This document shows, in pieces, positions 4,241 to 63,443 of a stretch of DNA of 64,000 nt. The notes beneath the pieces are model-generated. The model saw only the letters and a program-made list of their open reading frames with translations. It made no database searches and was not told the DNA's origin. Numbering within the stretch: position 1 is the first letter of the stretch; each line of letters starts with the position of its first letter. A program made the translations under genes and the position numbers. Source of the DNA: Stagnihabitans lacustris (GTDB lineage Bacteria > Pseudomonadota > Alphaproteobacteria > Rhodobacterales > Rhodobacteraceae); NCBI RefSeq assembly GCF_025950525.1, contig NZ_JAPDGS010000005.1, positions 1-64,000 of the forward strand. Reading direction: 5' to 3'.

Positions 4241-4738
4241 ATGACCATGCATGCCCCCCTTCTGGATGGTTCGCAGAAAGCCCTTCTGGCGGGGTATCTT
4301 GACAGTCTGGCGTTGTTGGAGCGGCTTCATCGCCTGCTTCTGGACGTCATCAAGGATGAGTTCGAACGGCTGGGGATCCTTGAGATCAACTCCGTTCAGG
4401 CGCTGTTGCTGTTCAACATCGGCGAGAACGAAGTGACGGCGGGGGAGTTGAAGACCCGCGGTTACTACCAGGGCTCGAACGTGTCCTATAATCTGAAAAA
4501 GCTGGTGGAACTGGGCTATATGCACCACCAGCGGTCAGAGATCGACCGCCGCTCGGTGCGGGTGCGGTTGACGGAAAAGGGCCGGCGCGTGCGCGGGCTG
4601 ATCTCGGAGCTGTTTCAGCGTCATGCCGAAGTGCTGGGCAAGCGCGGCGTGATCGACAACGAGGTCATGGAGACGATCAACGGATCGCTGAAGCGGATGG
4701 AACGCTTCTGGACCGAACAGATCCGCTATATCTACTAA
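4241..4738 (+). CDS. MarR-family winged-helix regulator, LdtR-like
   Basis: 165-residue dimeric DNA-binding protein. The winged helix spans about residues 45-120: LFNIGENEVTAGELKTRGYY is the helix-turn-helix entry, GSNVSYNLKKLVELGYM the recognition helix, and RRSVRVRLTEKG the wing. The SNVSYNLKKL signature resembles the LdtR group of alphaproteobacterial MarR proteins, which control cell-wall L,D-transpeptidase genes in other genera; that role is inference here. ATG 4241 is preceded by GGAG at 7 bases. The upstream stretch 4171-4225 is unusually AT-rich for this genome and probably carries its promoter. Confidence 0.85.
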   Translation: MTMHAPLLDGSQKALLAGYLDSLALLERLHRLLLDVIKDEFERLGILEINSVQALLLFNIGENEVTAGELKTRGYYQGSNVSYNLKKLVELGYMHHQRSEIDRRSVRVRLTEKGRRVRGLISELFQRHAEVLGKRGVIDNEVMETINGSLKRMERFWTEQIRYIY

Positions 4739-4740
4739 GG

Positions 4741-4901
4741 CCGGGTCCGGTTGTTTGCCAGCGGGCTGACGCCCGAAGGCAAACAACCGGAGGACGCGGG
4801 GGGGCTGCCGCCCCCCCGCACCCCCCCGCCCAAAGAGGCAGCGGCCCCTTTGGAAACCCGCCTCCGGGTGCTTTCCGGTTGGGGTATTCGCGAGATGAAT
4901 T
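4741..4901. repeat. composite intergenic element, form I (three hairpins plus core)
   Basis: No gene is seen between 4739 and 5037. The stretch holds a perfect 14-bp stem (4746-4759 with 4778-4791, outer bases TCCGGT/ACCGGA) with an inner CGGGC/GCCCG stem. Next is GCGGGGGGGC-tgcc-GCCCCCCCGC (4796-4819), then CCAAAG/CTTTGG (4830-4853), then a degenerate copy of the dispersed core (GGGGTATT...GATGAA, 4880-4898). The element at 10217-10352 has the same order of parts with different stem sequences. Probably terminates the MarR transcript. Nothing else is visible to 5037. Confidence 0.65.
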
Positions 4902-10211: not shown

Positions 10212-10216
10212 ATGGG

Positions 10217-10352
10217 GTCCGGTCAGGCCTCGCAGCGCCAGGGGCGCAGCAGGCCTGACCGGAGGAAGCGGGGGCTGCCGCCCCCGCCCCCCGCTTCAAG
10301 GGGAGCACGCTCCCCTTGAAAATCCCCGTGAGTATTTGCACCAGTATGAAAG
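10217..10352. repeat. composite intergenic element, form I
   Basis: First part of a 362-base gene-free stretch. Perfect 13-bp stem (10218-10230 with 10251-10263), then GCGGGGGC-tgcc-GCCCCCGC (10268-10287), then TTCAAGGGGAGC-ac-GCTCCCCTTGAA (10295-10320), then the reversed core AGTATTTGCACCAGTATGAAA (10331-10351). Same order as 4741-4901, with inner stem bases changed on both arms. Position just after nusB suits a terminator. Confidence 0.68.
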
Positions 10353-10409: not shown

Positions 10410-10525
10410 TTTCATCTTTTCCCAAATATCCCCGCCGGAGGCACGTTCAAGCCGGTTGGCCGCGGCACGCGGCCAGAGGCGAGGCAAAAATCTTGCGGCG
10501 AAAGCCGCTCCTTTGGGTTGCGGGC
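10410..10525. repeat. composite intergenic element, form II
   Basis: Starts with the core TTTCATCTTTTCCCAAATA (10410-10428), continues CCCCGCCGGAGGC, then hairpin-prone DNA, then GAGGCAAA-N3-CTTGCGGCG and a GGGTTGCG tail. The stretch at 55418-55518 has the same succession (CCCCGCCGGAGGC, GAGGCAAA-N2-CTTGCGCCG, GGGTCA). It lies directly upstream of the Hsp70 gene, so it could carry promoter or leader function there. Confidence 0.55.
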
Positions 10526-14078: not shown

Positions 14079-14100
14079 TTTCATACTGACCCAAATACTC
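14079..14100 (+). repeat. dispersed core element copy
   Basis: TTTCATACTGACCCAAATAC matches the core found at 23787 and 46377 (TTTCATACTGG-C-AAATA). It lies after the Hint gene and upstream of the rpsD promoter. No strong GC hairpin follows, unlike most copies. Confidence 0.6.
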
Positions 14101-16311: not shown

Positions 16312-16363
16312 GGCATCTGTCCTGCGGCTGATATGGACCCATAGGCGGCAAAGCCCCTGCCCA

Positions 16364-16461
16364 AGTCAAGGCACTCAAGTCGGGCCACCCGAGTCGGGCC
16401 ACACAAGTCGGGCCACCCAAGTCGGGCCACCCAAGTCGGGCCAGTCAAGTCGGGCAACCCC
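16364..16461. repeat. 14-bp tandem repeat (six units plus one degenerate)
   Basis: Units of AGTCGGGCCACCCA start at 16378, 16392, 16406, 16420, 16434 and 16448, with a decayed unit at 16364. It lies in the divergent region between the sulfotransferase-like gene and hisC. Fourteen is not a multiple of three and the stretch has no coding support. Confidence 0.88.
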
Positions 16462-16525
16462 GCAAAAGCCGCTGGCAAAGCCGCGCCCCCAAGGCTAAAA
16501 CCGCCCCAGCATTTCGAGGAAGACG

Positions 16526-23786: not shown

Positions 23787-23908
23787 TTTCATACTGGCTC
23801 AAATATTCCACGGGGGTCCGGGGGTGTGAAACCCCCGGCTTTCCAACGGGTCCGGGGGTGTGAAACCCCCGGCTTTCTAACGGGTCCGGGGGTGAGCCCC
23901 CCGGGGCC
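23787..23908. repeat. core element followed by three 34-bp hairpin repeats
   Basis: Core copy TTTCATACTGGCTCAAATA (23787-23805) is followed by three units starting TCCGGGGGTG at 23817, 23851 and 23885, period 34 bases. Each can form CCGGGGGT-gtgaa-ACCCCCGG, and the third is slightly altered. The block sits between convergent genes and directly abuts the lpd stop, so it probably terminates both transcripts. Confidence 0.8.
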
Positions 23909-25321: not shown

Positions 25322-25368
25322 CCGGGGGCGCTGCCCCCGGACCCCCGGGATATTTATGAAAAGATGAA
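25322..25368. repeat. core element with GC hairpin
   Basis: CCGGGGGC-gct-GCCCCCGG (25322-25340) followed by the reversed core CCCGGGATATTTATGAAAAG and ATGAA (to 25368). It occupies the gap between MAPEG and lpd, both on the minus strand, and touches the MAPEG stop. The hairpin/core pair is almost identical to 35344-35402 and 55352-55399. Confidence 0.75.
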
Positions 25369-25369
25369 G

Positions 25370-25765
25370 TCAGAAGAGGGCCGCGAGCAGCATGGCGGTG
25401 GTGGCCGCAAAGCCCAGGAACCAGATGGCAGAGCGGCCGGGGCGCAGGCCTATGGCATAGGCGGGGACATAGAGGACGCGGGCGCCGAGATAGACCCAGG
25501 CGCAGGTGGCGGTGAATTGGGTCGACTGGCCGGATGCCGTGATGACGAGGACCGCAATGGTGAAGAGGATCAGGCCCTCGAAGTGGTTGTTCATCGCGCG
25601 CTGCAGGCGGGCGGTGGTTTGTGAGAGCGGCTTGCTGGGCGGCTTGTCGCGGGCGGAAGAGGTATAGCCGGTGCCGAGTTCTAGGTTGGCCGGGACGGCG
25701 AAGAGGGCGAATTGCACGACCTGCAAGAGGGCCGCGAGGGTGAGGGCGGTGAGTTCTGGGGGCAT
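25370..25765 (-). CDS. MAPEG family membrane protein
   Basis: 131 residues, four membrane helices. PPELTALTLAALLQVVQFALFAVPANL, LQRAMNNHFEGLILFTIAVLVI (conserved RAxxNxxE motif) and AWVYLGARVLYVPAYAIGLRPGRS match the MAPEG family of glutathione-linked eicosanoid/membrane proteins; bacterial members have unclear roles. ATG 25765 gives the family N-terminus; an in-frame extension upstream is less likely. Lies between lpd and sucB. Confidence 0.88.
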   Translation of the reverse strand: MPPELTALTLAALLQVVQFALFAVPANLELGTGYTSSARDKPPSKPLSQTTARLQRAMNNHFEGLILFTIAVLVITASGQSTQFTATCAWVYLGARVLYVPAYAIGLRPGRSAIWFLGFAATTAMLLAALF

Positions 25766-35343: not shown

Positions 35344-35402
35344 CCGGGAGGGTTTCACACCCTCCCGGACCCACCCGTGGGATATTTATGAAAAGATGAA
35401 AT
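35344..35402. repeat. core element with GC hairpin
   Basis: CCGGGAGGGT-ttcac-ACCCTCCCGG (35344-35368) followed by the reversed core GGGATATTTATGAAAAG and ATGAAAT, which ends at the pepT stop codon. A near twin of 25322-25368, with a different stem sequence but the same layout. It probably ends the pepT transcript. Confidence 0.78.
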
Positions 35403-46376: not shown

Positions 46377-46430
46377 TTTCATACTGGCCCAAATATCTCT
46401 CGGGGGGGCAGGGGGGCAGACAGCCCCCCT
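46377..46430. repeat. core element with GC hairpin inside the sdh operon
   Basis: Core TTTCATACTGGCCCAAATA (46377-46395), then AGGGGGGC-agaca-GCCCCCCT (46410-46430). It begins four bases after the sdhA stop and ends just before the DUF3052 start, dividing sdhCDA from sdhB. May weaken or process the transcript at this point. Confidence 0.75.
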
Positions 46431-50886: not shown

Positions 50887-50937
50887 TTTCATCTTTTCTC
50901 ATATATCCCGGGGGGTGAAGGGGGGCTGGCCCCCCTT
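50887..50937. repeat. core element with GC hairpin between convergent genes
   Basis: Core TTTCATCTTTTCTCATATA (50887-50905), CCCGGGGGG, then AAGGGGGGC-tg-GCCCCCCTT (50918-50937), abutting both stop codons. Position fits a bidirectional terminator. Confidence 0.8.
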
Positions 50938-55349: not shown

Positions 55350-55399
55350 CCGGGGGGCCAGCCCCCCAACCCCCCCGGGATATTTATGAAAAGATGAAA
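55350..55399. repeat. core element with GC hairpin
   Basis: GGGGGGC-ca-GCCCCCC (55352-55367), then CCCGGGATATTTATGAAAAG and ATGAAA to 55399. Follows the upstream side of hisD and is the mirror of the copy that starts 19 bases later. Confidence 0.75.
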
Positions 55400-55417: not shown

Positions 55418-55518
55418 TTTCATCTGTTCCTAAATACCCCCGCCGGAGGCTCTTTGAGCGCAAGGGCTTCAGCCCGCCAAGCGAGGCAAAGGCTTGCGCC
55501 GCAGGCGCGCTATTGGGT
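55418..55518. repeat. composite intergenic element, form II
   Basis: Core TTTCATCTGTTCCTAAATA, CCCCGCCGGAGGC, hairpin-prone part, GAGGCAAA-N2-CTTGCGCCG and GGGTCA. It matches the order of 10410-10525. Its end supplies the final codons and stop of the GlxA-type regulator (stop at 55510). Confidence 0.6.
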
Positions 55519-62052: not shown

Positions 62053-62522
62053 AATGGCTTTTTCCGGCGGTTCTGGTGCTGGTTGCGGCCTGTGCGGCGC
62101 CGCCGGAGCCGGTCTCGGTGCCGGCGGTGCGCGACCTCTCGCGGCCGGTTTATTCCATCGCGGGCTTTGATCCGGCGCGCCTTTCAGGCGACTGGGAGCA
62201 GGTTGCGGGCTTTGGCCGCGCCTGCGGGCCGGGGCGGCTGCAGATGGGGGCGGAGTTGATCTATGACCTTTGCCTTCCGACTGGGCGGGCTGCGGGGGCT
62301 GCGCGCGCCACAGAGGTTCCGGGGCGGTTCGACAGCAAGGACGGCGCGCTTTGGGTGCTTTGGGCCGATGCCGATGACAGGACGCTGGTGATTGGCGGGC
62401 CGGATGGGCGGGTGGCCGCGGTCTTGAACCGGGCGGGCGGGATTTCGTCGGACCGGATGCAAGCGGCGCGCGATATCCTGGGATTCAATGGCTATGATGT
62501 CAGCCGGTTGGTCGTCTATTGA
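62049..62522 (+). CDS. lipocalin-like lipoprotein
   Basis: 157 residues. Signal with lipobox VLVAAC, then YSIAGFDPARLSGDWEQVAGFGR (the G-x-W motif of lipocalins), strands MGAELIYDLCLP, ALWVLWADADDRTLVIGGPDGRVAAVLNRAG and a C-terminal helix. Four-base ATGA overlap with the previous gene. Probably outer- or inner-membrane anchored; ligand unknown. Confidence 0.8.
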   Translation: MKWLFPAVLVLVAACAAPPEPVSVPAVRDLSRPVYSIAGFDPARLSGDWEQVAGFGRACGPGRLQMGAELIYDLCLPTGRAAGAARATEVPGRFDSKDGALWVLWADADDRTLVIGGPDGRVAAVLNRAGGISSDRMQAARDILGFNGYDVSRLVVY

Positions 62523-62529
62523 ACCCCCA

Positions 62530-62650
62530 GACCCCGGATCAGGTCCGGGGTGGCCCCGGGCGTGTTATTAAACCGCGAGACCCCGGATCAAGTCCGGGGT
62601 GGCCCCGGGCGGATATCAAACCGCGAGACCCCGGATCAGGTCCGGGGTGG
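62530..62650. repeat. three 48-49-bp repeats with CCCCGGATC(A)GGTCCGGGG palindromes
   Basis: Units starting GACCCCGGATC at 62530, 62579 and 62627, separated by 49 and 48 bases. Each palindrome (CCCCGGA-tcarg-TCCGGGG) is followed by TGGCCCCGGGC (TGGCGCGGGC in the third). The third unit runs into the 3' end of the XRE regulator gene and encodes its last residues. Confidence 0.82.
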
Positions 62651-63443
62651 CGCGGGCTGGGTGGCTGGCCTCGCGGACCAGATGGTCGAAGTGGCGGGCG
62701 ACCTCGGCCACCTTGGCGGGGTCTGAAAAGACCAGGTATTGTTGGCCCAGGTAGACCACAGCCCGGGTGGCGCCAAAGACCGTCACGGGGGCGGAAAACA
62801 CCCGGTGCGCGTCAAAAAGATAAAGCCTGACAGCGGGATAGCGGGTTTCGAGCCGCTGCGCCATATGGTCCAGTTGCGCCCGGCGCAGCGCGGCGGGCAG
62901 GCCGGACCAATAGCCGGTGCCGGCCGCGAAACTGACCAGTTCATGCCGGGGAAGGGCGATTTCGAAATCGGGAAAACCGGTTTCCAGCACCTGACGCTGG
63001 GCCTCGAAGGCCTCGATCGCGGCGTCGGGCAGACGGTATTCGAACGCCAGAACCTCTGGCGTTTTCAACAGGTCGGGCAGGGTGGCGGGGACATGGCGGA
63101 TCTTGGCGCCCTGCGCCTCGCGGTGCCAGGCCAGGATCGTGTCGTCAAACAGCGCGCGGGCGGCGGGGACCAGGGTCACGGCGCGCTCGGCCAGATGGTC
63201 GGGCGGATCGCGCCGGTCGGTCAGACCCAAAAGCCAGTCGCAAGACACCCCCAGCGCCGCGGCGCAATCGGCGGCGGCCTGGGCATTGGGCAAACGCTCG
63301 CCGGGGGCCAAAAGCGCAGAGATCGTCGACCGGTCCAGCCCCGTGGCGCGTGCGAGGTCAGATTGTGACCGCCCCTCAAGCGCCTGGGCAAGCCGGGCGC
63401 GGAACAGGGCGGCGCGGGTGCGTTTGTCGATCATATCCAGCAT
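62616..63443 (-). CDS. XRE-family transcriptional regulator
   Basis: 275 residues. N-terminal HTH about 12-70 (RARLAQALEGRSQSDLARATGLDRSTISALLAPGERLPNAQAAADCAAALG), then a larger helical/beta C-terminal domain (VLAFEYRLPDAAIEAFEAQ, FEIALPRHELVSFAAGTGYW, AVVYLGQQYLVFSDPAKVAEVARHFDHLV) as in acyl-responsive or methylcitrate-type XRE proteins. The end (ATPDLIRGLAV) is encoded by a repeat unit. Start ATG 63443 or 63434; SD weak. Divergent from a desaturase gene. Confidence 0.83.
   Translation of the reverse strand: MLDMIDKRTRAALFRARLAQALEGRSQSDLARATGLDRSTISALLAPGERLPNAQAAADCAAALGVSCDWLLGLTDRRDPPDHLAERAVTLVPAARALFDDTILAWHREAQGAKIRHVPATLPDLLKTPEVLAFEYRLPDAAIEAFEAQRQVLETGFPDFEIALPRHELVSFAAGTGYWSGLPAALRRAQLDHMAQRLETRYPAVRLYLFDAHRVFSAPVTVFGATRAVVYLGQQYLVFSDPAKVAEVARHFDHLVREASHPARATPDLIRGLAV

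Follow-up and report, generated by a model that had tools for sequence, protein, structure and literature searches.

Palindromic modules at the 3' ends of genes in Stagnihabitans lacustris: conserved sites and differing hairpins in a family of intergenic repeats

Two intergenic regions within a stretch of 64,000 nucleotides from the Rhodobacteraceae (Paracoccaceae) genome of Stagnihabitans lacustris (G000:C17:1-64000; hereafter, the window) carry the same series of hairpins, although the bases that form the stems are not the same. Covariation of this kind normally serves as proof that an RNA structure is functional, and an earlier note on this DNA had taken the paired change as pointing to selection on RNA (or cruciform) structure. 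Do the paired changes reflect such selection, or can another process account for them?

Direct reading of the sequence bears out the description on which that proposal was based: stems A, B and C and a core motif follow in the same order at 4741-4901 and 10217-10352, and inner stem bases differ jointly on both arms. The stem B quoted in the earlier note is exact for copy 2, but in copy 1 the stem has 2 bp more than the note gives. Stem A of copy 1 starts 7 nt past the stop codon of a MarR-family gene (4241-4738) and is composed of a 14-bp outer stem, TCCGGTTGTTTGCC/GGCAAACAACCGGA, with an inner GCGGGC-TGAC-GCCCGA; in copy 2 it begins 6 nt 3' of the nusB stop codon. The folding energy of both copies lies far past that of dinucleotide shuffles (RNA z -5.5 and -7.1; DNA z -6.7). 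BLAST searches with each copy returned 43 and 46 genome matches, or about 45 for this composite arrangement, hereafter form I. Its layout comprises the stop codon, 4-7 nt (often GCGGGG), a TCC..GGA-capped stem A of about 45-48 nt, GGA[A/C/G], stem B, ACCCCC(C)GC, stem C, AAACCCCGTGG and the core. The features of the window are summarized in Table 1.

Table 1. Coordinates of the composite copies and further cores in the window
Feature	Position	Strand	Description
Stem A, copy 1	4746..4791	+	TCC..GGA-capped hairpin; placed from sequence, R1 match 4742-4801 (E 2.7e-10) and spacing
Stem B, copy 1	4796..4819	+	GCGGGGGGGC-TGCC-GCCCCCCCGC
Stem C, copy 1	4830..4853	+	imperfect/interrupted, CCAAAG..CTTTGG
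Decayed core, copy 1	4884..4901	+	GTATTC-GCGAG-ATGAATT, 18 nt; below PWM threshold
Stem A, copy 2	10218..10263	+	13-bp outer stem; R1 match 10214-10273 (E 2.7e-8)
Stem B, copy 2	10268..10287	+	GCGGGGGC-TGCC-GCCCCCGC
Stem C, copy 2	10295..10320	+	11-12 bp, TTCAAGGGGAGC-AC-GCTCCCCTTGAA
Core, copy 2	10332..10351	+	GTATTTGCACCAGTATGAAA; PWM score 36.6
Second core, nusB intergenic region	10410..10429	-	head to head with the first; missing from the nusB region of the sister species
Core without composite	14079..14098	-	G207 has three different cores in tandem here
Form II core	23787..23806	-	hairpins GGGGGTTTCACACCCCC, then core
Form II core	25350..25369	+	ends at stop codon of next gene
Form II core	35382..35401	+	ends at stop codon of next gene
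Form II core	46377..46396	-	4 nt past stop codon
Core	50887..50906	-	directly behind stop codon
Core, first of head-to-head pair 18 bp apart	55380..55399	+	PWM
Core, second of head-to-head pair	55418..55437	-	PWM

A covariance model of stem A, built from 16 copies, recovered about 24 full-length copies from this genome and 28 from a second one, G207, which appears to be that of the sequenced sister species Stagnihabitans tardus (nusB locus L112/L192). The same model gave no matches in 14 other members of the genus or in 79 other genomes of the family (one of which, G191, is also in the genus set). The covariance search of family genomes suggested in the earlier note uncovered further copies, but for the composite stem A its matches came only from two closely related genomes.

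In this genome, 17 of the 21 R1 sites (nusB being placed from sequence) have stem A in sense with its start 0-7 nt past the stop codon, and form I lies in sense behind a gene in 19 cases versus 2 clear exceptions; gene calls were made with a simple codon-usage script, and counts that rest on them are approximate. This placement is partly a genome habit, since stop-proximal first hairpins are common here (the first hairpin lies within 10 nt of the stop codon in 26/121 cases). The genes upstream of stem A include those for a MarR regulator, NusB, an aminotransferase, a K+ transporter, a dehydratase, a phosphoribosyltransferase and a terminase, among others; they are unrelated, and a regulon was rejected on this ground. 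The copy at L270 lies 3' of a phage-type terminase large-subunit gene, possibly from a gene transfer agent. On a chromid of Paracoccus versutus, stems B and C occur without a core in an apparent operon, from 13 nt past the stop codon, and a pure terminator role is therefore unlikely there.

The core has the consensus [AG]TATTT-N9-TGAA[AG]. The exact pattern occurs 145 times in the genome versus 0 for the reversed control, and a position matrix (PWM) finds 64 cores in 464 kb versus none in second-order Markov sequence; should this density hold, there would be about 560 cores per genome. Sixty-three of the 64 are intergenic. Cores are densest in convergent regions (21/46) and sparsest in divergent ones (9/67), with co-directional regions in between (33/157); in the latter, 13 are directed toward and 20 away, which amounts to no strand preference. 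Close pairs of cores are head to head in 10 of 12 cases. An orientation-biased chromosome motif (Chi/KOPS-like) was rejected, as core strands are mixed along contig C11.

In a simpler arrangement, form II, the core is joined to a single hairpin (often GGGGG-TTTCACA-CCCCC) and occurs in both orientations. The form II hairpin GGGTCCGGGGGTGTGAAACCCCCGGC is present at 23814-23907 in three copies at 34-bp steps, adjoining one core. At 25370, 35402 and 50886 the stop codon of the neighbouring gene abuts the outer end of the core exactly (TGA-TTTCAT), as if the element had fixed the gene ends. Two arrays of other kinds were seen in the window. Between divergent genes at 16362-16473 the 14-bp repeat CAAGTCGGGCCACC is present about seven times, head to tail, in an array absent from the corresponding G207 region, and at a gene end (62517-62659) a unit of 46-49 bp containing ACCCCGGATCAGGTCCGGGGT is present in three tandem copies.

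A TATTT-N9-TGAA core with genus-specific centres is found in dozens of Rhodobacteraceae genomes, and the exact core pattern is absent outside the Rhodobacteraceae. In the family scan single genera have centres of their own (for example CCAGA, GACAG, CCAAG, GCAAG and GAAAA), and two genus members show several at once. The genus-specific centres could possibly be dialects of a putative recognition system.

Comparison with the sister species separates what is kept from what has changed. The flanks of stem A sites are 79-90% identical between the two genomes (86% overall), and 16 aligned site pairs show that a hairpin is kept at orthologous sites. Of the core-bearing regions, 22 could be mapped to G207, and every one of these has a core in that genome, which led us to reject neutral mobile insertion of cores, and the orientation always agrees where there is one core per side. 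Within 16 unambiguous core pairs, TATTT and TGAA are ~100% identical versus 56% for the 9-nt centre, a value barely above random pairing (permutation p 0.02; the 16 pairs were picked by hand). Sites, order and orientation are conserved between the sister species, while hairpins and core centre differ at most sites.

Further changes of content are apparent at individual loci. The MarR site carries composites with different module content in G000, G207 and G203; an IS-related insertion interrupts it in G200 and G201, and it is lacking in G191 and G197. The G201 element at this site, 3' of the MarR gene (L208/L209 in G200 and G201), contains the palindrome GACTCATTGGTTCATGGAACCAATGAGTC, and in G200 the same end runs into a transposase-like reading frame, so that the two look like an IS and its footprint. 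At two G207 sites (the L272 and L267 orthologues; C4:164163-164478 and C4:57492-57911) the stem B loop holds the same structured insert of ~80 nt, TGATGAGCGCCCGGAAAACCTTCCAG...CGCGGC, and a different insert, ATGCCACTTGTTTC...GTGGCAT, is present in stem B or C loops at L267, L274 and L042 of this genome. The loops of the hairpins seem to accept insertions of other small repeats.

The paired change itself is pronounced. Both partners change in 16 of the 20 base pairs of stem A, where 74 cells show a double change versus 2 with a one-sided one, and 96.9% of cells are paired, a proportion matched by none of 500 shuffles; for stem C the corresponding figure is 7 of 11 pairs. The earlier note had named a lack of further copies, or arms that decay independently, as outcomes that would refute its proposal; instead, copies were found and pairing is kept.

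The question is what maintains it. The hairpins could be functional mRNA structures selected base pair by base pair, with compensatory paired changes, and besides the pairing beyond all shuffles this accords with the sense orientation of stem A at a fixed distance from the stop codon and with the apical loops, which keep one orientation relative to the core (no reverse-complement loop occurs among core-adjacent hairpins). Such selection should tolerate G-U, but not A-C, on the transcribed strand. Non-Watson-Crick pairs on the sense strand of all stem A copies comprise 13 G-U versus 10 A-C (6 versus 9 in the first set), and intergenic stems of both genomes contain 57 versus 46. G-U makes up 1.2% of stem A pairs versus 8% in tRNAs (ARAGORN lists accepted pairs only, and the tRNA A-C count is thus no control). 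At the 16 orthologous stem A sites, 58 changes are double, 8 are wobble and 21 are broken. Only 12 of the 58 double changes are transitions that could pass through G-U, and the other 46 could not. Transitions account for 38% of changes in the flanking DNA, and 61% of instantaneous compensatory changes in rRNA are of the transition type (PMC8794818). The proposal of RNA (or cruciform) selection is partly supported, by the further copies, the kept pairing and the kept orthologous hairpins, but the G-U and transition tests, and near-identical hairpins at non-orthologous sites, do not support the step from paired change to selection on RNA. Point-by-point RNA compensation alone does not fit these sequence comparisons, and we regard it as an unlikely explanation of the family.

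The changes appear to come in larger units. A G207 hairpin resembles another copy of this genome more closely than its positional counterpart at 12 of 16 sites, in a test that gives other sites 21 chances versus 1 for the counterpart. The flank divergence of 14% predicts a hairpin distance of about 6, and most observed distances are 7-18. Hairpins at non-orthologous sites can be almost the same: L312 is 1 edit from L259 of this genome and L313 is 2 edits from L270, both of the latter with an otherwise unseen TTTCA loop. The own hairpin is kept at 4 of 16 sites, at one of them identically. Whole-module exchange between sites appears to fit these data best, and template-switch correction can add to it. 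Palindromic modules would be swapped whole between dispersed copies, through gene conversion or insertion-replacement as forms of ectopic exchange, and correction of one arm by the other would add smaller paired changes. No clean conversion tract was delimited, and to our knowledge there is no known enzyme for the exchange. The same covariation arises when ready-made palindromes are exchanged or when template switching corrects one arm, and by itself it is no proof of RNA selection.

Template switching during replication, which copies one arm of a hairpin onto the other, could conceivably maintain the stems in full with no structural selection. It is known to make and repair hairpin stems with multi-base paired changes (PMC8794818), and the runs of 2-6 adjacent changed pairs and the strand symmetry of the mismatches both agree with it. 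However, it leaves unexplained the fixed position after the stop codon, the conservation at orthologous sites and the near-identical hairpins elsewhere; loop inversion, one of its predicted outcomes, was not seen in core-proximal hairpins, and the single TTTCA loop common to two sites in two species was probably copied. We consider it quite improbable as the sole process. Little better placed, and likewise improbable, is a DNA-level site, where a nucleoid or recombination protein would bind the core as well as cruciforms or single-strand hairpins. Palindromes that are strand-symmetric and have short loops would suit such a site, as would the asymmetric, bipartite core in both orientations and often head to head, and the genus-specific centres in other family members; but stem A composites lie strictly in sense at a position set by the stop codon, neither of which a pure DNA site requires, and there is no candidate protein.

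The family can be compared with known intergenic repeats. The REP/BIME elements of enterobacteria are likewise many short intergenic palindromes in mosaics, often just past stop codons and in alternating orientations, and both the high copy number between genes (63/64 cores, 24 stem A sites, about 45 form I matches) and the alternation within clusters (10/12 neighbouring cores) are seen here. They differ in that the present family combines three different hairpins with a non-palindromic core and that hairpin sequence is replaced while the site stays. No GTAG/CGTC tag was seen by inspection at the foot of the palindromes, where GGGG precedes the stems and GGAGG follows. REP/RAYT mobility was rejected, as a search for the Y1 transposase (PF01797) gave 0 matches both for G000 and for the strong core-bearing genera, with positive controls. 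The REPINs of Pseudomonas, REP pairs with a linker, resemble the close core pairs in having two units head to head; here, in contrast, the unit is a hairpin with a 20-nt core, without RAYT, and the two species share their sites in the 22 regions that were mapped. The RIME/ABC elements of rhizobia and the Bru-RS palindromes of Brucella are alphaproteobacterial intergenic mosaic palindromes and offer a possible lead by their kind. Integron attC sites were also considered, given the constant structure with variable sequence, but inspection by eye showed no R-box motif. There were no matches above the gathering score to curated RNA families (Rfam 15) in the window, the best weak hits being at chance level, and no description of the family for Rhodobacteraceae was found in open-access papers.

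Like intrinsic terminators, form I places a GC-rich hairpin just 3' of the stop codon at the ends of transcription units. Unlike them, it has no U-tract behind stems A, B or C, and GGAGGA follows stem A. Intrinsic termination was rejected, a hairpin with U-tract being found downstream of 1 of 64 cores and upstream of 1; such terminators show no clear depletion or enrichment at gene ends that bear a core. The sense orientation, the fixed stop distance and the enrichment between convergent genes suggest an mRNA-end role for form I. Co-transcribed with the upstream gene, the element would supply the mRNA end with a chain of GC-rich hairpins, which most likely hold back 3'-5' exonucleases and read-through where transcription units end. 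The absent strand preference of cores in co-directional regions counts against an mRNA-end signal, which should show one. In E. coli, according to the account of Liang 2015 given in PMC12306157, ribosomes stall at REPs that lie no more than 15 nt from a stop codon. Stem A lies within this distance at the 17 stop-proximal sites described above, and by analogy it may also reduce the output of the upstream gene through the terminating ribosome, which makes this effect a fair second hypothesis.

Taken together, we favour, with modest confidence, the view that these are modular intergenic palindromic repeats, REP/BIME-like without RAYT, fixed at gene 3' ends and exchanging their modules, with a probable role as a barrier at the mRNA 3' end and a possible action on terminating ribosomes. 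A more far-reaching version, which we hold to be doubtful, is a RAYT-free system in which hundreds of intergenic sites are fixed in place and orientation while palindromes and 9-nt centres are continually swapped in from other sites to give genome-specific dialects; the conserved core ends would then be the recognition sequence of a putative recombinase or nucleoid protein.

Movement of whole palindromes from one fixed site to another is the better explanation of the very strong bacterial covariation seen here, and palindrome families of this kind can mislead searches for RNA motifs. Sites at which the same gene 3' end carries different hairpins in two species are natural replicates that allow a test of stop-adjacent hairpins, and the core motif, with its genome-specific centres, is spread over much of the Rhodobacteraceae.
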